Part shown: piece after piece, positions 46,873 to 61,700 of the stretch
Numbering within the stretch: position 1 is the first letter of the stretch
Layout of the letters: every line of letters starts with the position of its first letter
Origin: Mitsuaria sp. GD03876
Lineage (GTDB): Bacteria; Pseudomonadota; Gammaproteobacteria; Burkholderiales; Burkholderiaceae_C
Length of the DNA: 64,000 bases
Reading direction: 5' to 3'
Assembly (NCBI RefSeq): GCF_029840635.1
Contig: NZ_JAOCCU010000012.1
Coordinates: 62,001 to 126,000, forward strand
Notes under the pieces: generated by a model
The model's database searches: none
Seen by the model: only the letters and a program-made list of their open reading frames with translations
What the model was told of the DNA's origin: nothing
Made by a program: the position numbers and the translations under genes

Positions 46873-46948
46873 TGGCAGGGGCAGAGGGTCTCGAACCCCC
46901 AACCTTCGGTTTTGGAGACCGACGCTCTGCCAATTGAGCTATGCCCCT
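46873..46948 (-). tRNA. tRNA-Trp (CCA)
   Basis: 76-base minus-strand cloverleaf with encoded CCA, acceptor AGGGGCA/TGCCCCT and discriminator G. Its anticodon loop CTCCAAA gives CCA. It lies between tuf and secE, as in other proteobacteria. Confidence 0.97.
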
Positions 46949-46965
46949 GTGGCCTTTGACTTGAA

Positions 46966-48156
<1,191 letters not shown>

Positions 48157-48198
48157 CTTGCGCTCCTGGCGATCAGAAGAAACGGGATAGGAATTTGG

Positions 48199-48273
<75 letters not shown>

Positions 48274-48346
48274 ATCGACACAGGATTGACGACCTTATCA
48301 GCAATCCTGTGTCGAGCTCTCGACACGACAACCTTCAGCTTTCCTT

Positions 48347-48420
48347 TGGAGCGGGAAACGGGAATCGAACCCGTGTCATTAGCTTGGAAGGCTAAGGTTC
48401 TACCATTGAACTACTCCCGC
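48347..48420 (-). tRNA. tRNA-Gly (UCC)
   Basis: 74-base minus-strand tRNA with encoded CCA, acceptor GCGGGAG/TTCCCGC with one wobble pair, and discriminator T. The anticodon loop CTTCCAA gives UCC. Second tRNA of the tufB cluster. Confidence 0.96.
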
Positions 48421-48503
48421 CCGGGAGCTTGCCAATTCCAGCTGCCTGAACCGCGAAGCGGGTGTCGATCACCCGCTTCGTTGCTCGTGCATCTGTTTCG
48501 CCT

Positions 48504-48589
48504 TGGTGGAGGAGGCTGGATTCGAACCAGCGTACGCGTTAGCGGGCAGATTTACAGTCTGCTGCCTTTAACCACTCGGCCACCCCTCC
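48504..48589 (-). tRNA. tRNA-Tyr (GUA)
   Basis: 86-base minus-strand tRNA with the long variable arm of class II. The acceptor is GGAGGGG paired with the C-rich 3' side, discriminator A, with encoded CCA. The anticodon loop contains GTA. First gene of the tRNA-tuf-secE-rpoBC run, 14 bases from the -10 element. Confidence 0.97.
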
Positions 48590-48800: not shown

Positions 48801-48819
48801 TAATACCAATTTGCGACCA
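48801..48819 (-). promoter_or_regulatory. GlcNAc-locus operator motif, distal site at the TonB receptor
   Basis: On the minus strand TGGTCGCAAATTGGTATTA. It matches the 19-bp motif found at the nag operon promoter (TGGT at positions 1-4, TGG at 12-14, TTA at 17-19). It lies 138 bases upstream of the second site and overlaps the palindrome at 48815-48826. Confidence 0.6.
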
Positions 48820-48938: not shown

Positions 48939-48957
48939 TGGTAGCAAAGTGGCGTTA
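48939..48957 (+). promoter_or_regulatory. GlcNAc-locus operator motif, proximal site at the TonB receptor
   Basis: TGGTAGCAAAGTGGCGTTA ends 8 bases before the receptor -10 and so covers the place where a -35 box would be. The -35 itself is poor, so the bound protein could either block or help polymerase. Confidence 0.6.
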
Positions 48958-49106: not shown

Positions 49107-51746
49107 ATGAAGGTCAACAAGACCCCCATCGCGGCGGCGGTGACGCTGACGCTGTTGAGCGCGGCGTTCGCCGTGCAGGCCCAAGAACAAAAGAAGGATG
49201 ACGGCACCAAGCTGGAACAGGTGGTCGTCACCGGCATCCGCGCGTCGCTGGAGTCGGCGGCCAACATCAAGAAGAACGCCAGCGCCGTCGTCGACGCGGT
49301 GACCGCCGAGGACGTGGGCAAGCTGCCCGACGCCGACGTCGGCCAGGCCCTGGGCCGCATCCCCGGCATCTCGGTGGGCCGAGCCTTCGGCCAAGGCGCC
49401 TCGGTGTCGATCCGCGGCACCGACCCGCAGATGACCTACACCACGCTGAACGGCCAGACCGTCGCGTCCACCGGCTGGTATGACCAGATGGACATCGACC
49501 GCTCGTTCAACTACTCGCTGCTGCCTTCCGAAATGATCGGCGGCATGGAGGTCTACAAGTCCTCTCAGGCGAACCTGACCGAAGGCGGCATCGGCGGCAC
49601 GGTGATCGTCAAGACCCGCAAGCCCCTGGACCTGAAGGCCAACACGGTCTTCGGCAGCGTGCGGTACGGCAACGGCACCATCAGCGACGCGGAGAAGGAA
49701 GCCTCCGGCCTGTACAGCTGGCGCAACGAGGGCCGCACCCTGGGCGTGCTGGTCGCCGCCGGCCTGTCCAAGGGCGACTACATCCGCCGCGGCGTCGAGG
49801 CCGACAGCCGCTGGAACAGCGACGTCGCCCCCACCGCCTTCGTGCAGGAGCGCAAGCGCACCTCGTTCAACGTCGCCCTGCAGGCGCGTCCGGTCGAGGG
49901 CTTTGAGGTCGGCCTGAACCTGCTGAAGCTGAAGCTGGATGCCGACAGCTCCAACTCCAGCGACTACCTGATGCATGACGCGAATTGCGACAAGCGCAAT
50001 CCGGATGTCAAGTCGGACTTCAACCCGACCGGCATGTGCCTGCACAGCACGACCACGGCCGCCAACCCGCTGCCGCACAAGTTCTTCCAGGTCTGGGCGC
50101 GCGGCGCCAGCATGGACTCGGAAAGCGCCGTCGCCGACGCCCACTACACCCTGGGCAACGCCAAGTTCGACCTCGTCCTGGGCACGACCAAGGCGGACGG
50201 CGGCACCTCGGCCACCACCAACTACCAGACCGCCGCGTTCGACGGCGCCGCCGGCCCCTTCACGCGGCCGAACTGGCAGGGCACGATCGACGCCTCCGGC
50301 AAGCAGATCCAGATCAATCCGAGCAACAACCAGTCCTGGGGCGTCGGCGCCCTGCCGGCGCAGATGTCGCCGGAAACCTGGGCCACCTCCGCCGGCCCCA
50401 ACAAGGACAAGGAGAAGTTCGGCCAGCTCGACGCCACCTTCGACCTGGACTGGGGCGTCATCAACGCCTTCAAGACCGGCGTGCGCTTCGCCGACCACAC
50501 CTTCGAGAAGCGCGCCTATCGCCCGATCTGGAACGCGACGATCACCCCGGTCGCCACCTCCGGCCTGTTCGACGGCTCGGTGAACGTCGGCGGCTGGACG
50601 GTCCCGCGCGCCAACATCGGCGCGATGCTGGCCAACACCAACCGGAACATCGCGGGCTGGGTCGAGGACCGCTCCGGCTATGGCGAGCTGAACGAGAAGA
50701 ACCGTTCGGTCTACGGCATGTTCGAGTTCGAGACCAAGGGCCTGCGCGGCAACTTCGGCGTGCGCTACGTCTCGACCAAGGCCACCAGCACCGGCTACAA
50801 GTTCGACGGCGTGACCCCGGCCGACCAGTACGCTGGTAACCAGAACTGGGCGAAGACCACCACGTCGACCAAGTCGACCTACAACGATGTGCTGCCGAGC
50901 ATCAACCTGGCCTTCGACCTGAAGAGCAACCTGATCCTGCGGGCCACCGCCTCGCAGGCCATCACGCGCCCGAACTTCGCCAACATGTTCGGCGTGACGG
51001 TGTCCGGCTACAACGACGACCGCGCCGGCAACGAGACCTGGACCATCGGCAACATCGGCCTCAAGCCGATGAAGTCGAGCCAGGCCGACATCGGCCTGGA
51101 GTACTACTACGGCCGCGGCAACATGATGTCGGCGACCTACTTCGTCAAGGACATCTCCAACTTCGTCGTCGCCAACGCCACGCCGAACCAGAAGGTCGGC
51201 CTGGTCGATCCCAAGACCGGCGTCGACAACTGGACGGTGCAGAGCTTCCAGAACGCCGGCGGCGGCAAGATCCGCGGGGTGGAACTGCAGGCCAACCACG
51301 CCTTCGGCAACGGCTTCGGCGCGCAGGGCAACTACACCTTCACCGAAGGCAATGCGCCGGCCAGCAGCTACCTGGACCAGCTGAGCCTGTTCACGCAGTC
51401 CTCCAAGCACAACGTGAACCTGGTCGGCTACTACGAGAACGAGCAGTACTACGCCCGCCTGGCCTACAACTGGCGTTCGAAGTACATGATCCGCGAAGGC
51501 GCGTTCTGGTACGGCAACCGCATGCACGATGCCTACGGCACGCTGGACGCCAGCGTGGGCTGGAACATCACCAAGAACCTGCGGCTGTCGTTCGAGGCGA
51601 TCAACCTGACCAAGGAAGACGACGTCCAGTACGGCGCCGCCGCGGCCTCCAACACCGCCATCAAGGATCCGCTGCGCGCCGGCTACCCGGCCTGGAGCTT
51701 CAAGGGCGAGACCACCTATAAGCTGGGCCTGAGCGCCAAGTTCTGA
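49107..51746 (+). CDS. TonB-dependent outer-membrane receptor (Xanthomonas/Caulobacter type), probably for GlcNAc oligosaccharides
   Basis: 879 residues. A signal peptide (MKVNKTPIAAAVTLTLLSAAFAVQA) is followed by the TonB box region LEQVVVTGIRASLESAANIKK, the plug domain (LPDADVGQALGRIPGISVGR, then GASVSIRGTDPQMTYTTLNGQ) and a 22-strand-type beta-barrel ending in an aromatic-terminated strand TTYKLGLSAKF. This is the TIGR01782-like family used for carbohydrate uptake. Start 49107 has GAGGAG upstream; the frame extends further but lacks a signal peptide. It converges on the nag operon, and shared operator motifs suggest joint control. Substrate (chito-oligomers) is inferred from context. Confidence 0.9.
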   Translation: MKVNKTPIAAAVTLTLLSAAFAVQAQEQKKDDGTKLEQVVVTGIRASLESAANIKKNASAVVDAVTAEDVGKLPDADVGQALGRIPGISVGRAFGQGASVSIRGTDPQMTYTTLNGQTVASTGWYDQMDIDRSFNYSLLPSEMIGGMEVYKSSQANLTEGGIGGTVIVKTRKPLDLKANTVFGSVRYGNGTISDAEKEASGLYSWRNEGRTLGVLVAAGLSKGDYIRRGVEADSRWNSDVAPTAFVQERKRTSFNVALQARPVEGFEVGLNLLKLKLDADSSNSSDYLMHDANCDKRNPDVKSDFNPTGMCLHSTTTAANPLPHKFFQVWARGASMDSESAVADAHYTLGNAKFDLVLGTTKADGGTSATTNYQTAAFDGAAGPFTRPNWQGTIDASGKQIQINPSNNQSWGVGALPAQMSPETWATSAGPNKDKEKFGQLDATFDLDWGVINAFKTGVRFADHTFEKRAYRPIWNATITPVATSGLFDGSVNVGGWTVPRANIGAMLANTNRNIAGWVEDRSGYGELNEKNRSVYGMFEFETKGLRGNFGVRYVSTKATSTGYKFDGVTPADQYAGNQNWAKTTTSTKSTYNDVLPSINLAFDLKSNLILRATASQAITRPNFANMFGVTVSGYNDDRAGNETWTIGNIGLKPMKSSQADIGLEYYYGRGNMMSATYFVKDISNFVVANATPNQKVGLVDPKTGVDNWTVQSFQNAGGGKIRGVELQANHAFGNGFGAQGNYTFTEGNAPASSYLDQLSLFTQSSKHNVNLVGYYENEQYYARLAYNWRSKYMIREGAFWYGNRMHDAYGTLDASVGWNITKNLRLSFEAINLTKEDDVQYGAAAASNTAIKDPLRAGYPAWSFKGETTYKLGLSAKF

Positions 51747-51914: not shown

Positions 51915-52625
51915 CTAGAAGTCGTAGAAGGTGGTGATGGTCAGCCGGCCCTGGCGCGGGTCGCTGCTGAGCCCCAGGGCGGGGTTCACGATGGCCGAAT
52001 GCAGCAGGCTGCCCCGGTAGGCCACCAGGCGGTTGAATCGCGCCGGCAGCATGCCCAGCAGCTCGAAGCAGTCGTCCGAGTCGCTGAAATAACGCGGCGG
52101 CGCCGGGCGGCGCTCCATCTCCGCATAGATCAGGTCACCGTAGCGCTCGCGCCGGTCGGCGGTGATCTGCTGCAGGCCGCTGGCCTTGTGGCGGTAGAAG
52201 GCGGTCCCGCCATGGCGCTCGTCGCAGAGGTAGAGCATCACGGCCATGAAGTGCGGCGTGCTGGCATCGAAATGCGGCACCCGCTGCAGGGGGCCCAGGT
52301 CCTCGGGTGCCACCGTCGTCACCGAGAAGGCGCACGGCGACTTGCGCAGCGGCAGTTCCTCGGGAACGCCGAAGTTCAGCCGGATCAGCGGGTCGAGCAG
52401 CGCCGTCAGGCTTTCGGAATAGGCCGCGGGCACCGGCGCTCGCAACCCGGGATAGCCCTTGCGCTCGTCGGCGCCCGGGCAGCGCTCGAAGCGGGCCTGG
52501 CAGGCGGCCTCGACCAGGGCCTGCGGATCCACGAGGAAATCGTCGATGACGACGACCGGGTGCTCGCCGACCCGCACCGAGCGGATGTCGGGCGGCATGC
52601 GAATGGCGAAGGGATCCGGGGTCAT
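51915..52625 (-). CDS. Putative 2OG-Fe(II) oxygenase, DUF6445-like
   Basis: 236 residues, last gene of the nag run. His118-x-Asp120 (VPHFDAS), distal His209 (SLLHSAIVNP) and Arg227 (GRLTITTFYDF) fit the HxD..H..R facial triad and 2-oxoglutarate-binding pattern. ERHGGTAFYRHKASG is typical of the DUF6445 group often placed beside sugar TonB receptors. No signal peptide is visible. The ATG at 52625 gives a sensible N-terminus but has only a weak ribosome site (CCGGTCC); longer frames upstream overlap nagX and are rejected. Substrate unknown; hydroxylation of a protein or sugar is possible. Confidence 0.6.
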   Translation of the reverse strand: MTPDPFAIRMPPDIRSVRVGEHPVVVIDDFLVDPQALVEAACQARFERCPGADERKGYPGLRAPVPAAYSESLTALLDPLIRLNFGVPEELPLRKSPCAFSVTTVAPEDLGPLQRVPHFDASTPHFMAVMLYLCDERHGGTAFYRHKASGLQQITADRRERYGDLIYAEMERRPAPPRYFSDSDDCFELLGMLPARFNRLVAYRGSLLHSAIVNPALGLSSDPRQGRLTITTFYDF

Positions 52626-52663: not shown

Positions 52664-53737
52664 TCAGATCTTCCAGTACCAGCGGCGCCGGTCGAGCTCG
52701 CGCACGATGAGCCACCACACGCCCACGAAGGCCACCGCGAACGCCAGGGACTGGCCCTCCGGGCCGACGATCGGCGCCAGCCAGCCGAAGCCCTGCGCGT
52801 AGAGCGGGCGCATCCAGCCGAAGCCCTCGAGGAACACGGTGCACATCCACGCGCCGGCATAGGCGGCGATCGCGTTGACGCCGAAGCTGCGGAACAGCGC
52901 CGGCGCGCCTTGCCGGTCGATCAGTGCATGCGCGCCCAGCAGGGCCAGCGCGGCCAGGCCGCCCGTCCACAGCACGAAGGACGGGGTCCACAGGTTCTTG
53001 TTGATCGGCATCAGGCCGATGGCGTCGAGCGCGAATCCCGCCGCCGCCGCCAGCAGCCCGATCACCGCCAGCGGCTTGAGCGCGCCGGCGCGCAGCGCCT
53101 CGCCGCAGCGCCAGCCGAACAGCGTCGTGGCCAGCGCGCCGAGCGTGGCGACGATGCCTTCGGGATCATGGCCGAGTCCCGTCGCCGGATCCCATTGATA
53201 GGCATGCGGACCAAGGATCCAGGCGTCGATGCGGCTGGCGATGTTGCCGGCCTTGTCCAGCGGGCCGCCCCACAGCAGCAGCGCGCCGTAGGCGAACAGC
53301 AGCACCGCGATCCAGGCCCGCTGCCCGGCGGCGCGCCACTGGATCGCGATCAGGCCGGTGAGGGCGAAACACAGCCCGATGCGCTGCAGCACGCCGGGGA
53401 TGCGCAGCGCCGGCTTGTCCATCAGCCACCAGGCCAGCGCGTGCAGCACCAGGCCGAGCGCCAGGATCCGCAGCCCACGCTTGACCACCGTGCCGCGCAA
53501 GGCGGCGCCGCCGCCAGCCTCGATCCGCGCGCCCATCGCCAGCGACAGCGACACGCCGACGATGAACAGGAAGAACGGGAACACCAGGTCGGTCGGCGTC
53601 CAGCCGTTCCACTCGGCATGCTCCAGCGGCGCGTAGACATGGCCCCAGTCGCCCGGGTTGTTGACCAGCAGCATCGCGGCCACGGCGAGACCGCGCAGCG
53701 CGTCGACGGACGCGATGCGTTTCGAGGAAGCGTTCAT
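52664..53737 (-). CDS. nagX: NagX-like membrane acyltransferase (heparan-alpha-glucosaminide N-acetyltransferase family)
   Basis: 357 residues with about ten predicted membrane segments. It starts SKRIASVDALRGLAVAAMLLVNNPGDW and has WTPTDLVFPFFLFIVGVSLSLAMG, the COG4299/DUF5009 hallmark shared with human HGSNAT, which acetylates terminal glucosamine across a membrane. In GlcNAc clusters of gammaproteobacteria this gene is called NagX and is thought to act on amino sugars in the periplasm. It lies 38 bases upstream of the oxygenase gene and follows the GH16-like gene after a 105-base spacer with repeats. Confidence 0.82.
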   Translation of the reverse strand: MNASSKRIASVDALRGLAVAAMLLVNNPGDWGHVYAPLEHAEWNGWTPTDLVFPFFLFIVGVSLSLAMGARIEAGGGAALRGTVVKRGLRILALGLVLHALAWWLMDKPALRIPGVLQRIGLCFALTGLIAIQWRAAGQRAWIAVLLFAYGALLLWGGPLDKAGNIASRIDAWILGPHAYQWDPATGLGHDPEGIVATLGALATTLFGWRCGEALRAGALKPLAVIGLLAAAAGFALDAIGLMPINKNLWTPSFVLWTGGLAALALLGAHALIDRQGAPALFRSFGVNAIAAYAGAWMCTVFLEGFGWMRPLYAQGFGWLAPIVGPEGQSLAFAVAFVGVWWLIVRELDRRRWYWKI

Positions 53738-53845: not shown

Positions 53846-54787
53846 GAAATCGCAGCGGCTCTCGAGCGCCGGCTGCGGGGCCGGCACCTGGTCCAGCCGC
53901 ATGACGCCGCCGGCGCGCCAGCGCGCCACCTGCGCCTCGACCTGCGCCGGGCTCAGCATCGTGTCCTTCGCGTGGAAGACCCAGTCGACGTCCTGCTCGT
54001 ACACGCGCGGGGCGCCGCCGGCCGCGCCCTGGGGCAGCGGACCGTCCGGCGAGAACCACAGGTTGAAGTTGATCGACATCGGCACCACCGGATAGTTCCG
54101 GCCGCCGTGCTCGTCGACCTTGCGGCCATCGATGAACCAATGCGTGCGGCCGTCGGCGACCTGCATCACCAGCGTGTGCCAGTCGCGGCCCCGCTCGCCC
54201 AGCGGGCCGAAGTCCTCGTGCTGCTGGTTGAAGGCCAGCCACGGCTCCAGCCGCACCGTCTGCCAGGTGATGCCGTAGATCCGCGTCTTGTCGCTGCCCC
54301 AGCCGCCGTTGGGCAGGTACTCCCAGTCCAGCTCGCTGAACTCGGGGTCGAAGTCGTGCTTCAGCGGGCTCACCGCGTAGAAGGTCTGGATCACCGGGTC
54401 GCCGTCGGCGCCGCTGACCGGCTGGTCGCTGAAACGCACCCGCGCGGCGTAGGTGCCGGCCAGGTATTTGCGCTGGTGGCACACCTGCACCTGCGTCGTG
54501 CCGGGACCGGTGCCGTCGGTCGCCGCGTGCAGGCGCAGCTTGCCGTCGACCAGGCTCAGGCCCTCGGGGGCCCAGCGCGCGCCGGCGATGCCGGGATGGC
54601 CCTTGGCGTCGCGGGCGGCCCAGCCTTGCTTGAAGAGCGCGGCGGTGTCGGGGTAGCTGAAGTCGTCGAAGAAGAACTGCGGCTCGGCGGCCTGGGCGCT
54701 CGCGACGGTCAGCAGCGCCGCGGTGGTTGCCCCCAACCACTGCCGCACCGCGGCGGTTTTGCTACCGAGGACTGCGGGGGCTTTCAT
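53843..54787 (-). CDS. Secreted GH16-like glycoside hydrolase
   Basis: 314 residues. A signal peptide (QWLGATTAALLTVASAQAA) points to the periplasm or outside. The concanavalin-like core carries the GH16 catalytic signature ExDxE as Glu152-Leu-Asp154-Trp-Glu156, in FSELDWEYLPNGGWG, with later IRGSITWQTVR-like and WHTLVMQVADGRTHWFIDGRKV strands. GH16 enzymes cut beta-1,3/1,4 glucans and galactans or transglycosylate chitin-glucan in fungi; a GH16 in a GlcNAc operon suggests an amino-sugar polymer as substrate. Its start overlaps the MFS gene stop by 4 bases (ATGA). A hexamer repeat covers its stop codon. Confidence 0.75.
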   Translation of the reverse strand: MKAPAVLGSKTAAVRQWLGATTAALLTVASAQAAEPQFFFDDFSYPDTAALFKQGWAARDAKGHPGIAGARWAPEGLSLVDGKLRLHAATDGTGPGTTQVQVCHQRKYLAGTYAARVRFSDQPVSGADGDPVIQTFYAVSPLKHDFDPEFSELDWEYLPNGGWGSDKTRIYGITWQTVRLEPWLAFNQQHEDFGPLGERGRDWHTLVMQVADGRTHWFIDGRKVDEHGGRNYPVVPMSINFNLWFSPDGPLPQGAAGGAPRVYEQDVDWVFHAKDTMLSPAQVEAQVARWRAGGVMRLDQVPAPQPALESRCDF

Positions 54788-56106
54788 GGCGTGCTTTCGG
54801 CGGGGGTGGCGACGGGCGTGTCGTCCGGCTTCGGGGCGCGTCCGGGCATGCGCACGAACAGCAGCAGGATCAGCGCGGGGGCGCCGCAGGCGATCGTCCA
54901 GAGGAAGAAGTGCTCGTAGCCCATCGCGAGCTGGATGTCGCCGCTGATCGTCTTGGAGAAGATGAACCCCAGCTGCATCACGCCGGAACCCAGCGCGTAA
55001 TGCGCCGTCTGGTACTTGCCCGGCGCCACCGCCTGCATGATGTACAGGATCATCCCGACGAAACCGAAACCGTAGCCCAGCATCTCCACCGCGACGGCGA
55101 AGCCCACATGCCACAGGTCCGCCGGCATCGTGACGGCCAGGTAATAGAAGGTCGCGTTCGGGACCGCCATCGCCACGATCAGGAACGGCATCGCGCGGCG
55201 CAGGCTCATCCAGCTCGTGAAGTAGCCGCCGACGATGCTGCCCACCAGGAACGCCGCCGTGCCCACCGTGCCGTAGATGCCGCCCACCTGCTCCGTGCTC
55301 AGGCCCAGGCCGCCCTTGTCGCGCGCCTCGATCAGGAACAACGGCCCGATCGTCTGCACCTGCCCCTCGGCGAAGCGGAACATCACGATGAACAGCACCA
55401 TCAGCCAGATGCCGGGCTTCTTCAGGAAGTCCGCGATGACCTCCTGCAGGGTGCGCCAGACACCGGCGGCGGTGAGGTCGCCATGGTCCGTGTTGAGCGT
55501 GCCCGGCAGCGCGTACGCGTTGTAGCTGGCCAGCACGAACAGCAGCACCGCCAGCAGCGCGAAGATCACCGACCACGCGTTCATGACGCCGATGCCGCGC
55601 TCCAGGTGACCGGCCAGCACCAGCAGCCCGCCCAGCGTCAGGAACTTGGACGCGTTGAAGAACGCGCCCTGCCAGCCGGCATAGGCCGCCTGCTGCTTGT
55701 CGTCCAGCGCGGCCATGTAGAGGCCGTCGCAGGCGATGTCGTGCGTGGCCGACGCATAGGCCAGCAGGAACAGCACCGCGATGCTGGCCGCGAACCACAT
55801 CGGCAGCTGCAGCGCCACCGCCATCAGCGCCAATCCCGCCGCGCCGGTGAACTGGCCCGCGACGACGATCAGCTTCTTGCTGCGCGCCAGTTCCAGGAAC
55901 GGGCTCCACAGCGGCTTGAACGCCCACGCCAGGCCGAGCAGGCCGGTCCAGCGCGCGATCTGGTCGTTGGCCACGCCCATGTTCTTGAACATCAGGCCGG
56001 CGATCAGCATGACGACGAAGAACTGCATGCCCTGCACGAAGTACAGGCTGGACACCCAGCGGATCGGCGATCTGGCGGGAGCGGAGGAAGTCTGCGGCTG
56101 GCTCAT
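54784..56106 (-). CDS. AmpG-like MFS sugar/muropeptide transporter
   Basis: 440 residues with twelve or more hydrophobic segments. It starts SPIRWVSSLYFVQGMQFFVVMLIAGLMFKNMG and has ATHDIACDGLYMAALDDKQQAAYAGWQG, a pattern shared with AmpG permeases that import anhydro-muropeptides. In this operon, directly upstream of the GH16-like gene and after the GH3 hexosaminidase, it most likely brings GlcNAc disaccharides or oligomers across the inner membrane. The start at 56106 (MSQPQTS) is preferred over a longer basic N-terminus. Confidence 0.82.
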   Translation of the reverse strand: MSQPQTSSAPARSPIRWVSSLYFVQGMQFFVVMLIAGLMFKNMGVANDQIARWTGLLGLAWAFKPLWSPFLELARSKKLIVVAGQFTGAAGLALMAVALQLPMWFAASIAVLFLLAYASATHDIACDGLYMAALDDKQQAAYAGWQGAFFNASKFLTLGGLLVLAGHLERGIGVMNAWSVIFALLAVLLFVLASYNAYALPGTLNTDHGDLTAAGVWRTLQEVIADFLKKPGIWLMVLFIVMFRFAEGQVQTIGPLFLIEARDKGGLGLSTEQVGGIYGTVGTAAFLVGSIVGGYFTSWMSLRRAMPFLIVAMAVPNATFYYLAVTMPADLWHVGFAVAVEMLGYGFGFVGMILYIMQAVAPGKYQTAHYALGSGVMQLGFIFSKTISGDIQLAMGYEHFFLWTIACGAPALILLLFVRMPGRAPKPDDTPVATPAESTP

Positions 56107-56161: not shown

Positions 56162-57643
56162 TCAGCCCAGCGTGACCGGCGAGCGGCCGCCGGCATCGCC
56201 GCGGCCCTGCAGCCAGGCGCCCAGCGCGTCCAGCGCGCCGTCCGCGTAGCCCCAGCTGATCACCGTCGGCGCCGCGACGTCCAGCGCCTGGAACGGATTC
56301 CACAGCACCAGGTGCAGGTCCGGCCGCCACGCGCCGGCGTTGTCACCGTAGCGCGCGCGGTGCGTCGACGCGACCACGGTGAAGCGGCCGTCGGCCGGCA
56401 CCTGCGCCCAGTCCAGCGCCGCGATGTCGCCCAGCGAGACGAACTCGACGTCGCGGTAGCCCTCGAACAGCGCGCGCACCTGCGCGCCGGTCGGTCCGGC
56501 CTCGGACACGCCGTCGGTCGGCACCTCGTCCTGCACCAGCACGCGCAGCGGCCGGTCCAGCGCCGGCGGCGCCGCGCCGCGCAGCGCGCTCAGGCCGGCC
56601 GCCCAGGCGCGGCGCATCAGCGCGTCGTCAGCCTCGCGGCGCGCGCCCTGGTAGTCGTCGAAGCGCACCGGGAAGTCGCGCGCCAGCTTGTCCAGCCGGG
56701 CCTCGGCCTGGCGGCCGCGCTCGACGGTCAGGTTGCCGCGCGTGAGCGCGTCCTGCAGCGCGTGGATCGCCTGCGCCTGCTCGTCCAGCGAGCCTTGCGC
56801 CAGGATCATGTCGGCGCCGGCGTTGATCGCCAGCACCGCCGCCTTGGCGTAGCCGTAGCGCTCGGCGATCGCCTTCATCATCAGCGCGTCGGTGATGACG
56901 ACGCCGTCGTAGCCGTACTCGTCGCGCAGGATGCCGCCGAGGATCGTCCGGGACAGCGTCGCCGGATAGTCCGGATCGATCCTCGGGTACACGATGTGCG
57001 CCGTCATGATCGACGGCGCCACGTCGCGCAGCGCCTGGAAGGGCTTGAGCTCGAGCGCGTCGAGCTCGGCGCGCGACTTGTCCACGGTGGGCAGGTCCAG
57101 GTGGGAGTCGACATGCGTGTCGCCGTGCCCCGGGAAGTGCTTGATGCAGCAGGCCACGCCCGCGTCCATCGAGCCCTTCATCCACGCGCCGGCCAGGCGC
57201 GTGACGGTCTCGGCGGTCTCGCCGAAGCTGCGCTCGGCGATGACCGGGTTGGCGGCGTTGTTGTTGATGTCGGTGACCGGCGCGAAGTTCCAGTTGATGC
57301 CGATGCCGCGCAGCCCGCGCGCCACCGCGGCGCCGACCTGCTCGGCCAGCGCGGCGTCGCCGGCCGCGCCCAGCGCCATCGCCGACGGCGGCTGCGGCAG
57401 GAAGGTCGCCCGCACCACCGAGCCGCCTTCCTGGTCGAGCCCGATCAGCGCGTCCGGGCCCATCGCGTCGCGCAGGTCCTGCGTCAGGCGGCGGACCTCG
57501 GCCTCGGTGCCCAGGTTCTTGCGGAACAGGCAGACGGCGCGGATCTTGTTGTCGCGCAGGAAGGCCGCGGTCGCCGCGTCCAGGGTCTTGCCCTGGATGT
57601 CCACCATCACCAGCCGGCCCGGATGGAATGCTGTCTCGCTCAT
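56162..57643 (-). CDS. nagZ: Beta-N-acetylhexosaminidase, GH3 (NagZ-type)
   Basis: 493 residues, no signal peptide, so probably cytoplasmic. The NagZ-specific KHFPGHGDTHVDSH loop supplies the His/Asp catalytic pair and VVITDALMMKAI the Asp nucleophile; LIGLDQEGGSVVR opens the barrel. It would release GlcNAc from imported chitobiose or muropeptides. E. coli NagZ ends near residue 341; here about 150 further residues (from ~345) resemble the second alpha/beta domain of two-domain GH3 enzymes. The start at 57643 follows AGAAGAGAACGAC. The symbol denotes family, not a proven role in cell-wall recycling. Confidence 0.88.
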   Translation of the reverse strand: MSETAFHPGRLVMVDIQGKTLDAATAAFLRDNKIRAVCLFRKNLGTEAEVRRLTQDLRDAMGPDALIGLDQEGGSVVRATFLPQPPSAMALGAAGDAALAEQVGAAVARGLRGIGINWNFAPVTDINNNAANPVIAERSFGETAETVTRLAGAWMKGSMDAGVACCIKHFPGHGDTHVDSHLDLPTVDKSRAELDALELKPFQALRDVAPSIMTAHIVYPRIDPDYPATLSRTILGGILRDEYGYDGVVITDALMMKAIAERYGYAKAAVLAINAGADMILAQGSLDEQAQAIHALQDALTRGNLTVERGRQAEARLDKLARDFPVRFDDYQGARREADDALMRRAWAAGLSALRGAAPPALDRPLRVLVQDEVPTDGVSEAGPTGAQVRALFEGYRDVEFVSLGDIAALDWAQVPADGRFTVVASTHRARYGDNAGAWRPDLHLVLWNPFQALDVAAPTVISWGYADGALDALGAWLQGRGDAGGRSPVTLG

Positions 57644-57741: not shown

Positions 57742-58752
57742 TCAATGCGTCTTGGTGACCTTGGCCAGGTGGCGCGGCTGGTCGGGGTTCAACCCGCGCG
57801 CCTGCGCCACCGCCTCGACCATCGGATAGAAGCTCTGCACGGCGGCGATCGGATCCAGGTCCTCGTTGCCGGTGCAGGTCAGCGGCAGTTCCGCGCCCGG
57901 CGTGCCTTCCGGCGCCGCCAGCAGCACGCGCGCGCCGCGGCCGCGCATTTCCTCGGCCAGCGCCAGCAGCCCGGCCTGGGCCGGACCGCGCGGCGCGAAC
58001 ACCAGCAGCGGGTAGCCCTCCTCCACCAGCGCCATCGGGCCGTGCTTGACCTCGGCGCCGGAGAAGGCCTCGGCCTGGATGCCGCAGGTCTCCTTGAACT
58101 TCAGCGCCGCTTCCAGCGCGATCGGCAGCGAGGTGCCACGACCGATGACGAACAGCTTGTCCACGTCCTTCAGCGCCTCGACGGCGGCGTCCCAACGCTG
58201 CTTCGCGGCCTGCTCCATCGCCTGGGGCAGGGTCTGCAGCGCGGCGGCGAGGTCCTCGTCGCCCTGCCAGGCGGCGACCACGCGCGCGCCGGCCACCAGC
58301 TGCGCGATGTAGCTCTTGGTCGCGGCCACGCTCTGCTCGACGCCCGCGTGCAGCGGGAAGACGTGCTCGGCGGCGGCGGCCAGCGGCGAGCCGTCGGCGT
58401 TGACGAAGGCCACCGTGCGCGCGCCGTTGGCGCGGAAGTACTGCGTCGGCGAGACCAGGTCCGGGCTCTGGCCCGACTGCGAGAACGCCAGCGAGACCAG
58501 GCCCTTGCTCTCGATCTTGCTCTGGTAGAGCGTGATCAGCGACATCGGCAGCGAGGTCACCAGCCGGCCCAGCCGCGCCATGACCAGGTAGGCCAGGTAG
58601 TTCGACGCGTGGTCCGAGCTGCCGCGCGCGATCGTCAGCAGCGCGCTGGGCGGCTGCTCGCGCAGCGCGTCGCCGAGCGCGGCGTACGCGCCCTGATCGG
58701 CGGCCAGCTGACGGGCCACCACCTGCGGCGCGCTCAGCGCCTCTTCAAGCAT
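57742..58752 (-). CDS. nagB-II: SIS-type glucosamine-6-phosphate deaminase (NagB-II)
   Basis: 336 residues with two SIS domains like the isomerase half of GlmS: ARGSSDHASNYLAYL, then FSQSGQSPDLVSPTQYFR and IGRGTSLPIALEAALKFKETCGIQAEAFSGAEVKHGPMALVEEG. There is no glutaminase domain, which fits the NagB-II enzyme described in Shewanella and others, converting GlcN-6-P to fructose-6-P and ammonia. It replaces classical NagB here. The ATG at 58752 overlaps the nagA stop by 8 bases. A 98-base spacer without a T tract separates it from nagZ. Confidence 0.9.
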   Translation of the reverse strand: MLEEALSAPQVVARQLAADQGAYAALGDALREQPPSALLTIARGSSDHASNYLAYLVMARLGRLVTSLPMSLITLYQSKIESKGLVSLAFSQSGQSPDLVSPTQYFRANGARTVAFVNADGSPLAAAAEHVFPLHAGVEQSVAATKSYIAQLVAGARVVAAWQGDEDLAAALQTLPQAMEQAAKQRWDAAVEALKDVDKLFVIGRGTSLPIALEAALKFKETCGIQAEAFSGAEVKHGPMALVEEGYPLLVFAPRGPAQAGLLALAEEMRGRGARVLLAAPEGTPGAELPLTCTGNEDLDPIAAVQSFYPMVEAVAQARGLNPDQPRHLAKVTKTH

Positions 58753-59881
58753 TCGCGAGGTCAATCGATTCCCCTTCCACGACCACGCGCTGCAACTGCA
58801 AGCCACGGTCTAGTACGACAAGATCCGCCCAGGCGCCCGGAGCCAGGCGGCCCCGGTCGTCCAGACCCAGGTAATCGGCCGCGTTCGTGGACACGCGCTT
58901 GGACGCGTCCTCGATCGACAGGCCCAGTTTCAGCACCAGGTTGCGCAGCGCCTGGTCCATCGTCAGCGTCGAGCCGGCCAACGTGCCGTCGGGCAGGCGC
59001 ACGCCGCCCAGGCACTTGGTGACGCGGTGGCGGCCCAGGCTGTATTCGCCGTCGGGCATGCCGGCCGCGGCCGTCGAATCGGTGACGCAGAACAGCTGCG
59101 GGATGCTGCGCAGCGCGACGCGGATCGCGCCGGGGTGCACGTGCAGCAGGTCCGGGATGATCTCGGCGTAGCGCGCGTGCGCCAGCGCGGCGCCGACCAT
59201 GCCGGGCTCGCGGTGGTGCAGGCCCGTCATCGCGTTGAACAGGTGGGTGAAGCCGCCGGCGCCGCGGCCCAGCGCGGCCACGCCGTCCTCGTAGGTGCCC
59301 AGCGTGTGGCCGATCTGGACCTGGAAGCCGGCCTGGCGCAGCCGCTCGACGAGGTCCAGGTTGCCCGGCAGTTCGGGCGCCAGCGTGATCAGCCGGATCG
59401 GCGCGATCGCGTCCAGCTCGCCGATCTCGGCGATCGACGCGGCCTTGGCGAAGTCCGGCTGCGCGCCGAGCTTGCCGGGATTGATGTAGGGGCCCTCGAG
59501 GTGCACGCCCAGCACGCGGGCGCCGCCGGCGGGACGCTCGGCGCAGGTCGGCGCGAGCGCGCGCATCGCCTGGCGGATCTCGTCCAGCGGCGCGGTCATC
59601 GTCGTGGCCAGCAGCGACGTGGTGCCGTGGCGCGCATGCAGCCGGGCCAGCTGCGCGGCGGCGTCGCCGCCTTCCATCGTGTCGTGGCCCGCGCCGCCGT
59701 GGACGTGGGTGTCGATGAAGCCGGGCAGGACCAGGGGCAGGTCCCGCTCGCCGTGCCGCGCCTCGTGCTCGGCCACGGCGGTCCCGTCGATGCCGACGAC
59801 GCGACCTGCTTGATGCTTCAGCACACCGCGGATGAACCCGCTGGGTGTCAGGATGAATCCGTCGATGTGCTGGGCCGTCAT
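58745..59881 (-). CDS. nagA: N-acetylglucosamine-6-phosphate deacetylase
   Basis: 378-residue amidohydrolase. Features are FIDTHVHGGAGHDTMEG (substrate/metal region), HLEGPYINPGKLGAQ with the metal-ligand Glu, GHTLGTYED, THLFNAMTGLHHREPG and TDSTAAAGMPDGEY with the catalytic Asp. It makes GlcN-6-P and acetate in the cytoplasm, feeding NagB-II. Its start overlaps the GntR gene stop by 4 bases and its end overlaps nagB-II by 8, so the three are tightly coupled. Confidence 0.95.
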   Translation of the reverse strand: MTAQHIDGFILTPSGFIRGVLKHQAGRVVGIDGTAVAEHEARHGERDLPLVLPGFIDTHVHGGAGHDTMEGGDAAAQLARLHARHGTTSLLATTMTAPLDEIRQAMRALAPTCAERPAGGARVLGVHLEGPYINPGKLGAQPDFAKAASIAEIGELDAIAPIRLITLAPELPGNLDLVERLRQAGFQVQIGHTLGTYEDGVAALGRGAGGFTHLFNAMTGLHHREPGMVGAALAHARYAEIIPDLLHVHPGAIRVALRSIPQLFCVTDSTAAAGMPDGEYSLGRHRVTKCLGGVRLPDGTLAGSTLTMDQALRNLVLKLGLSIEDASKRVSTNAADYLGLDDRGRLAPGAWADLVVLDRGLQLQRVVVEGESIDLANA

Positions 59882-60621
59882 CCGTCGCGCCTCATCTCCG
59901 CGACGAAGTCGTAGTAATCGCTGCGGCAGTAGGAATGGGTCAGCTCGACGGCTTGGCCCTGGTCCAGGTAACCCACCCGCGTGATGAACAGCACCGCCTG
60001 GCCCACCGGAACTTCCAGCAGACCGGCCAGCCGCGAATCCGCGTTGATGGCTCGAATGTGTTGCAACGCGCGCACCGGCGCGCCGCCGTGTCGGGCGAGG
60101 TGCTCGTAGAGCGAGGACTCGACCTTCTGCGGATCGGGCAGCACCGCCTCGGGCAGCACCGACAGCTCGTAGGCCATGACCACCGAGTCGGCCAGGCGCA
60201 GCCGCTCCAGGCGCGCGACGCGCTGCCCGGTCGTCAGGCCGAGCGAGAGCTGCTCGTCCGGCGCGGCCATGGCGAAGCCGCGGGTCAGCCAGCGGCTGCT
60301 GGGCTTGAAGCCGCGCTGGTGCAGTTCCTCGGAGAAGCTGGTCAGGCGCGACAGCGGCTGCTCGAGCTTCGGGGCGATGTAGTTGCCCGAGCCGCGCTTG
60401 CGCACGATCAGGCCTTGCTCGACGAGGCGGTCGATCGCCTTGCGGGCGGTGACGCGCGAGAGGTCCAGCGACTCGGAGAGCACGCGCTCGGACGGCAGGG
60501 CCTCGTCGGCCTGGTACTGGCCCTCGCGGATCGCTTGCGCCAGCTTGTGCGCGAGCTGCATGTACAGCGGCGAGGCGGCGGCGGAATCGGGCTTGAACTG
60601 GAAGGGCAGCTTGGTGCTCAT
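59878..60621 (-). CDS. GntR/HutC-family regulator of the GlcNAc locus
   Basis: 247 residues. The winged-helix DNA-binding domain occupies ~18-84 (SPLYMQLAHKLAQAIREGQY, PSERVLSESLDLSRVTARKAIDRLVEQGLIVRKRGSGNYI). The UTRA ligand domain covers ~95-240 (RLTSFSEELHQRGFKPSSRWL, ending ELTHSYCRSDYYDF). HutC-type relatives (DasR, NagR/YvoA, NagQ) sense GlcNAc-6-P or GlcN-6-P and control GlcNAc genes. It lies 16 bases after the kinase gene. The 19-bp motifs at 61586-61700 and 48801-48957 are its likely sites. Repressor action is inferred. Confidence 0.92.
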   Translation of the reverse strand: MSTKLPFQFKPDSAAASPLYMQLAHKLAQAIREGQYQADEALPSERVLSESLDLSRVTARKAIDRLVEQGLIVRKRGSGNYIAPKLEQPLSRLTSFSEELHQRGFKPSSRWLTRGFAMAAPDEQLSLGLTTGQRVARLERLRLADSVVMAYELSVLPEAVLPDPQKVESSLYEHLARHGGAPVRALQHIRAINADSRLAGLLEVPVGQAVLFITRVGYLDQGQAVELTHSYCRSDYYDFVAEMRRDG

Positions 60622-60637: not shown

Positions 60638-61582
60638 TCAACGTGTTTCGGAGAGAGCGCCGCGGACCAGCCGCAGCGCGCCGTCGGCCGAGTCGCCCTG
60701 GGGCGACACGCAACGGGCCCGAATGTTGCCTGAGAAAAGCGCGGCGAGCCGCTGCGCCACGCTGCCCGCCAGCGACAACGGCAGCTGCTGCGACGGGTCC
60801 AGCGCGAGCGCGAGTTGTTCCAGTTCCGCGACCGCCTGCGCGACCAGCGCGGCGGCGGCCGGATCCGCTTCCATGTGCTCGAACACCAGGGGCGCGAGCT
60901 GCGCGTAGGCATGCTGGCCGGCCTGGGCGACCCAGGCGTTGACGGCGTCGCGGTCCTGGTCGTGGGTGCAGCCGGCGGCGCCCCACACGGCCTGCGCCAG
61001 CGGACCCGCGGCGGCGCGGCCGTCCATGGCCTTCTGCGCGACGCGCATCGCCTGGATGCCGAGCCAGGCGCCGCTGCCCTCGTCGCCGCCGATCCAGCCC
61101 CAGCCGCTGACGCAGACCATCGCGCCGTCGGCGCGCAGCGCCTCGCCCACCGTGCCGGTGCCCGCGGCGATCACGCCGCCGGGCCGGCCCGCATGGGCGC
61201 CGATGACGGAGGTGGTGCCGTCGTTCACCAGTTCGATGTGGGCGTAGCCAGGCTGCTGCGCGATGAAGGCCTGCGCCTGCGCGGCCACGCCGGCGCCGGA
61301 CAGGCCCAGGCCGATCGCGGTCTCTGCCAGCGGCAGGCGTTCGATGCCGCCCTTCACCGCCGCTTCCTGGACCGCCATCTGGATGTGGCGCCAGGCCTGC
61401 GCGATGCCCTGTCCCAGCGCGGACGGGCCGGCCCATCCCTGGCCCAGCAGCCGTCCGTGGACGTCGCTGAGCCGGACCCGCGTGCCGGTGCCGCCACCAT
61501 CCACTCCCACCAGGAAGCGGACGGCCGCGAATTGCGGCGACACGGGCGCGGACCAGGCGTCCGCCAGGGAGTGACTCGTCAT
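60638..61582 (-). CDS. BadF/BadG-type amino-sugar kinase (GlcNAc or glucosamine kinase)
   Basis: 314 residues of the ASKHA fold. The phosphate-1 loop is FLVGVDGGGTGTRVRLSD, the adenosine region is VIAAGTGTVGEAL, and VSGWGWIGGDEGSGAWLGIQAM follows. The family includes human GlcNAc kinase and bacterial glucosamine kinases. In this operon it supplies GlcNAc-6-P for NagA after MFS-type uptake without phosphorylation. The ATG at 61582 lies only 3 bases from the operator-like site and has no ribosome site, so translation may be leaderless or start inside; a GTG near VSPQFAAVRFLVG is an option. Confidence 0.88.
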   Translation of the reverse strand: MTSHSLADAWSAPVSPQFAAVRFLVGVDGGGTGTRVRLSDVHGRLLGQGWAGPSALGQGIAQAWRHIQMAVQEAAVKGGIERLPLAETAIGLGLSGAGVAAQAQAFIAQQPGYAHIELVNDGTTSVIGAHAGRPGGVIAAGTGTVGEALRADGAMVCVSGWGWIGGDEGSGAWLGIQAMRVAQKAMDGRAAAGPLAQAVWGAAGCTHDQDRDAVNAWVAQAGQHAYAQLAPLVFEHMEADPAAAALVAQAVAELEQLALALDPSQQLPLSLAGSVAQRLAALFSGNIRARCVSPQGDSADGALRLVRGALSETR

Positions 61583-61585
61583 GAT

Positions 61586-61604
61586 TAATACCAGTTTAGT
61601 ACCA
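61586..61604 (-). promoter_or_regulatory. GlcNAc-locus operator motif B, adjacent to the kinase start
   Basis: On the minus strand TGGTACTAAACTGGTATTA: two TGGTA units exactly 11 bases apart, ending 3 bases before the ATG. TACTAA inside it, 15 bases after TTGACG (minus strand), may serve as the -10 of a short-leader promoter. Confidence 0.65.
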
Positions 61605-61623
61605 AAAAACGCGGAGCGTCAAT

Positions 61624-61642
61624 TGGTAGCGCACTGGACTTA
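61624..61642 (+). promoter_or_regulatory. GlcNAc-locus operator motif C
   Basis: TGGTAGCGCACTGGACTTA on the plus strand, facing motif B across 19 bases. It matches the shared pattern at TGGTA, TGG and TTA. Confidence 0.55.
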
Positions 61643-61681
61643 ACCCTGATGCGCGAGGCGCTCCGCGACGGGATCCCAGGT

Positions 61682-61700
61682 TATGACCACCGCCGTACCA
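61682..61700 (-). promoter_or_regulatory. GlcNAc-locus operator motif D
   Basis: On the minus strand TGGTACGGCGGTGGTCATA, 39 bases beyond motif C and 27 bases short of the ung stop. It is the weakest match (ATA instead of TTA) but keeps both TGG units 11 bases apart. Confidence 0.5.

Follow-up and report, generated by a model that had tools for sequence, protein, structure and literature searches.

Three 19-mers of the form TGGT-N7-TGG-N3-TA lie in the 145-base gap between ung and the N-acetylglucosamine (GlcNAc) kinase gene of this bacterium, which is of the Roseateles/Mitsuaria type and belongs to the betaproteobacteria. They raise the question of whether such repeats serve as operators of the amino-sugar operon and, if so, which protein reads them and how they are placed on its promoter. 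The window analyzed here is the whole 64-kb stretch of DNA, and the three copies claimed in an earlier note on it are indeed present, at 61586-61604 (minus strand), 61624-61642 (plus strand), and 61682-61700 (minus strand). Each consists of two TGG-headed units running in the same direction and 11 bp apart, the spacing that the note had given.

Site A (TGGTACTAAACTGGTATTA; 61586..61604, minus strand) reads TGGTACT-AAAC-TGGTATT, adjoins the ATG of the kinase gene, and is the predicted primary NagQ-type direct-repeat operator. Site C (TGGTAGCGCACTGGACTTA; 61624..61642, plus strand), the predicted mirrored secondary operator, abuts with its head the TTGAC of a putative −35 box, and site B (TGGTACGGCGGTGGTCATA; 61682..61700, minus strand) is a predicted weak distal operator whose distance varies in relatives. 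The earlier note had a copy abutting the kinase start, which exists and is our site A; the label B, which it used for that copy, is reserved here for the distal site. Scored against TGGTATT-N4-TGGTATT, site A has 13 of 14 letters and sites C and B 10 each. Elsewhere in the window, TGGT-N7-TGG-N3-TA is matched just twice, at 48801-48819 (minus strand) and 48939-48957 (plus strand), both times ahead of the gene for a TonB-dependent receptor; these two presumably complete the "five sites" of which the note spoke. Random 145-mers were drawn from the window composition, from the gap composition, and from a first-order Markov model of the gap, 100,000 each; one match occurred in 34, 77, and 79 of them, respectively, and two or more in none. 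This rarity overstates the surprise because the pattern was set after the sites had been seen, and related loci were therefore taken as the better test.

We consider it likely, with a probability of roughly 0.85, that the repeats are NagQ-type operators for the GntR/HutC-type repressor whose gene stands second in the operon, and that A and C together cover the promoter until an amino-sugar phosphate releases the protein. On the minus strand, ung is followed in order by nagK (60638..61582), encoding a GlcNAc kinase of the BadF/BadG ATPase family (NagK_SO3507, E 2.9e-40, below the equivalog cut-off); the regulator gene (59878..60621); nagA (58745..59881; TIGR00221, above cut-off); a nagB-II type glucosamine-6-phosphate deaminase gene with SIS domains (57742..58785; NagB_SO3506, E 3.1e-80, below the equivalog cut-off); a GH3 beta-N-acetylhexosaminidase gene (56234..57631; NF003740, above cut-off); and a gene for an AmpG-like MFS transporter (54784..56106; TIGR00901, below cut-off). 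NCBIfam cut-offs are thus reached by NagA and the hexosaminidase, and the kinase, deaminase, and transporter carry the names of best-matching models that stay below theirs. Farther along, also on the minus strand (52664..53737), is a gene for a NagX-like HGSNAT_cat/DUF5009 membrane protein.

The regulator, a probable NagQ, has a GntR domain (E 9.8e-17) and a UTRA domain (E 4.5e-35) in the domain search, as in the HutC subfamily, and none of the 25 NCBIfam models listed for it attains its cut-off. The protein resembles NagR/YvoA and DasR, both of which have solved structures, and its best named matches in a protein search come from Mitsuaria and Roseateles species. The earlier note placed its gene two genes downstream; it does lie downstream of the sites, but right behind the kinase gene, in second place in the operon.

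The dre operators of DasR and NagR (YvoA) are palindromes with TGGT-type half-sites. These regulators are HutC-type relatives acting in the same pathway, and the half-sites are of the same TGGT type as the units found here, but the present units repeat in one direction, 11 bp apart. A dre-type inverted TGGT/ACCA palindrome can accordingly be set aside as the form of the operator, the units within each site being direct repeats, and the claim that a direct-repeat form unlike the DasR/NagR palindrome occupies an amino-sugar promoter is borne out.

The same note called this operator new-looking, which does not hold because TGGTATT repeats are already in print for NagQ. In the available part of one account, "NagQ (direct repeats TGGTATT)" is given as an exception among HutC-type motifs, with Yang et al. 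2006 cited as its reference 30 (PMC4494728), and a second, in its accessible text, describes NagQ's motif as tandemly repeated and cites Yang et al. 2006 for the NagQ regulon (PMC5343134). As far as that text goes, NagQ is found in alpha- and betaproteobacteria and some gammaproteobacteria, its motif varies between some gammaproteobacterial groups, its reported targets include nagKAB and chitin genes, and in two Xanthomonas species the kinase is under NagR and not NagQ (PMC5343134). The present locus is like that regulon in its TGGTATT direct repeats, in the position of the regulator gene beside nagK, nagA, and nagB, and in having sites, as sequence matches, at chitin and uptake genes (GH18, tonB-exbBD, and receptor). 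It is unlike it in the number of sites, three, and in that two of these mirror each other across one promoter at a fixed spacing, a feature absent from the portions of the NagQ accounts available. The likeness was judged from motif, regulator domains, gene location, and further sites.

That the sites serve the operon's own GntR/HutC-type protein, as the earlier note supposed, is the likely reading of the sequence. A different GntR-family protein encoded in this genome might read them instead; a search with the query protein finds 10 matches there at E 0.001 or better, the query included. We regard this alternative as highly improbable, given that the GntR gene sits in the very operon it would control, that its product is 95-99% identical in the 15 other searched genomes of the genus, that the next best match in its own genome is 28% identical among the matches listed, and that the motif is the NagQ motif as published in the part of the source seen (PMC4494728).

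Conservation was scored in the best 80 of 185 named loci, of which 72 could be used (seven lacked a kinase match and one was too short). Between −400 and +60, the best site reached at least 12 of 14 in 70 of the 72 scored relatives, versus a best of mostly 8 or 9 in letter-shuffled regions (20 per locus, n=1440), where 12 was reached once. Since the 72 relatives are related to each other, these counts cannot be taken as independent. Site A hardly varies, scoring at least 12/14 in 67/72. Site C scores at least 10/14 in 52/72, lying 36 or 37 bp from A in 49 when offsets of 25 to 59 were allowed, and a same-strand upstream match corresponding to B scores at least 10/14 in 44/72, at varying distances. 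All three kinds of site are present at L047, whose protein is 91% identical. The three loci with proteins 57-62% identical (L048-L050) have best scores of 10 or 11 in their 3.7-kb loci, which is the level of the shuffled sequences, and their nag promoter may lie outside the stretch scanned. Four loci with proteins 34% identical or less (L051, L052, L056, and L057) show no site above 11/14 in the scanned loci. On these sequence comparisons, the set appears to be one of real, well-conserved NagQ-type operators.

The placement of A and C can be understood from the promoter they appear to flank. A simple promoter scan of the window finds a putative sigma-70 promoter of the nag operon, TTGACG-N18-TAAACT (61593..61622, minus strand), with its putative −10 box TAAACT (61598-61593) inside site A, between the two TGG units, and its TTGAC directly beside the head of site C. 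The distance from TTGAC to the hexamer is 18 bp in 35 and 17 bp in 33 of the 72 scored relatives, TTGAC being absent in the remaining 4; the hexamer of the 68 loci with TTGAC is TARAST in 66 and TACACT in 2. Its T, A, A, and T, equivalent to positions 1, 2, 4, and 6 of TATAAT, are invariant in the 52 distinct A sites scoring at least 11. The spacing of A and C is fixed at 36 or 37 bp because the two sites sit on both elements of one putative promoter with a spacer of 17 or 18 bp. The start codon of the kinase gene comes 10 bases past the putative −10 box (61582-61598), and in 45/72 scored relatives the hexamer is followed after 7 to 10 bases by the first in-frame start. This leaves little room for a ribosome-binding site, and the kinase mRNA may therefore be nearly leaderless.

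We lean, with some reserve, toward describing the nag promoter as a mirrored direct-repeat operator pair, with the −10 box inside A and C abutting the −35 box, the spacing shifting only with the promoter spacer. A HutC-type repressor would then occupy both promoter elements, oppositely oriented on the two; a third site would lie distally, and the kinase mRNA would be almost leaderless. A simpler arrangement, in which A is the sole working operator, C owes its conservation mainly to the adjoining −35 box, and B is a chance or relic match, would account for the modest scores of B and C here (just 10/14), for the lack of a fixed position for B, and for the 23/72 scored relatives in which C falls below 10/14, or reaches it at another spacing, with TTGAC mostly kept; it follows from this last count that C is not essential. 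Against it, the T, G, and G of the second unit are kept in 93, 83, and 93% of 30 distinct C copies scoring at least 10 at about this spacing, a figure that is partly circular in that the copies were chosen by score. Moreover, C reaches 12 or 13/14 in some relatives (e.g., L076 and L092), as does B (L080 and L092), and C at 36 or 37 bp coincides with a B of at least 10/14 in 33/72 scored relatives. On balance, an operator consisting of A alone seems unlikely to us.

The gap also contains an exact inverted repeat with 9-bp arms (61610-61618 / 61659-61667), after which the minus strand has six T; in this species the arrangement resembles a terminator of ung that overlaps with the nag promoter. 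If the gap housed a terminator or a tRNA-like RNA element, the TGGT motifs could be its by-products, and the arms and T run would be its trace. RNA of the window folds through these arms at −26.3 kcal/mol, a value not set against shuffles, and in two relatives, L073 and L075, stems with a different sequence fold at roughly this position. Both arms are exact, however, in just one of 14 aligned relatives (L064), in all 14 of which site A is kept, and we hold it very doubtful that an RNA element explains the motifs; a terminator could in any case coexist with operators. The letters of site C strike us as tRNA-Leu-like, a likeness seen by eye, and ARAGORN finds no tRNA there. The one Rfam match is at chance level and falls inside the kinase gene rather than in the gap.

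Returning to NagQ-type operators as the preferred reading, we examined the two further sites in the window, at the TonB-dependent receptor gene (49107..51746, plus strand; TIGR01782, TonB-Xanth-Caul type). Upstream of it are a NagQ-type site scoring 11/14 (TGGTCGCAAATTGGTATTA; 48801..48819, minus strand) and a second one scoring 10/14 (TGGTAGCAAAGTGGCGTTA; 48939..48957, plus strand). The receptor is present in 12 of 16 genomes of the genus, its own included, and both sites recur at like positions in all 12, the equivalents of the 48801 site scoring 11 or 12 and those of the 48939 site 10 of 14. Shuffled regions come close to these scores (up to 11, versus 10 to 12), which alone would not stand out, and in two genomes the distal copy no longer has the T at position 4 of TGGT. 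Near the receptor gene there is also a gene for a DUF6445 protein of unknown function (51915-52571), and beside the receptor gene those for tRNA-Trp, -Thr, -Gly, and -Tyr surround an elongation-factor-Tu-like gene (46873-48589), the latter named by eye from its translation.

The earlier note had proposed a scan of the whole genome. With TGGTNYTNNASTGGTATK as the pattern, the genome contains four matches at 0 or 1 mismatch and none to the reversed pattern, and these four best matches precede nagK, a tonB-exbBD cluster, and two GH18 chitinase genes. Across 16 genomes of the genus, 65 matches with at most one mismatch were found versus 7 for the reversed pattern, the nagK site making up 16 of the 65; of 28 loci taken from this genus-wide scan, 27 were scorable, with 3 inside genes. 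At up to two mismatches, the genome itself has 27 matches versus 14 reversed, 20 of them inside genes and 7 intergenic, as judged by a crude rule of GC by codon position (run on 26 of the 27, the nagK site being taken as intergenic from the window). The intergenic matches fall at six loci, namely nagK, tonB-exbBD, the two GH18 genes, a PIG-L deacetylase gene, and a site pair before a GH18/ChiC chitinase gene. An intergenic share of 7/27 is no higher than that of the reversed control (5/12 scorable, 14 in all), and the informative part is the identity of the following genes, which were annotated for matches to the forward pattern. Amino-sugar and chitin genes are among the best matches of the scan that the note had proposed, but looser scans sink to background, with 65 matches at three mismatches versus 63 in the control.

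The match at the tonB cluster (L003/L201; G000:C20:65860) has on one side a TonB-dependent receptor/2OG-Fe(II) oxygenase gene pair and on the other a tonB-like gene with exbB and two exbD genes behind it, and it recurs elsewhere in the genus. No Pfam family matches the tonB-like protein, which owes its name to its place and proline-rich sequence. The tonB site and that of the chitinase gene on contig C39 are roughly 390 to 550 bp from the start codons. A further site (L004; G000:C28:37371) lies about 80 bp upstream of the gene for the PIG-L family deacetylase, with two mismatches to TGGTNYTNNASTGGTATK and one in a separate pattern scan. This gene is a possible member of the regulon as judged from the match, and its product is not obviously part of the GlcNAc pathway. 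A sequence-only matrix (R1), built from 56 of 70 distinct site sequences and too weak for its 21 positions, gave two matches at E 10 or better in the genome, the nagK site (E 0.006) and a GH18 site on contig C13 (E 1.5).

In the mechanism we propose, repressor dimers would occupy A and C when amino sugar is absent, covering the −35 and −10 boxes and excluding RNA polymerase, and site B could aid repression through cooperativity or looping. GlcNAc-6-P or GlcN-6-P would release the repressor, switching on the kinase, regulator, deacetylase, deaminase, hexosaminidase, and transporter and, in parallel, the TonB-dependent receptor, the GH18 chitinases, and the TonB-ExbBD energizer. The weak scores of B and C and the loose scans at background call for caution here. 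The Escherichia coli regulator NanR offers a partial parallel. In the accessible part of its description, dimers of this GntR-family protein bind tandem GGTATA repeats near a promoter, N-acetylneuraminate weakens the binding, and three repeats take three dimers, with an N-terminal extension for cooperativity (PMC8012715). The resemblance is thus to a GntR-family protein acting cooperatively on tandem repeats near a promoter. NanR differs in its three repeats with three dimers, in its N-terminal extension, and in belonging with the FadR subfamily, where the part of PMC4494728 available places it.

Mostly, then, the locus appears from its sequence to be a well-preserved further example of a known chitin/GlcNAc switch. 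The single feature for which no earlier description was found is the mirrored, promoter-embedded pair: the available portions of PMC5343134, PMC4494728, PMC13055268, and PMC8012715 and the literature listings consulted hold no account of one, in searches that were not aimed at the mirrored pair alone. The sites turn a loose motif into a testable promoter map and provide a natural set for asking how a HutC-type dimer reads direct repeats, given its palindrome-using relatives NagR and DasR. The Roseateles/Mitsuaria group has chitin- and chitosan-degrading members, as species names likewise suggest, and a likely regulon joining amino-sugar and chitin genes is proposed for it here.
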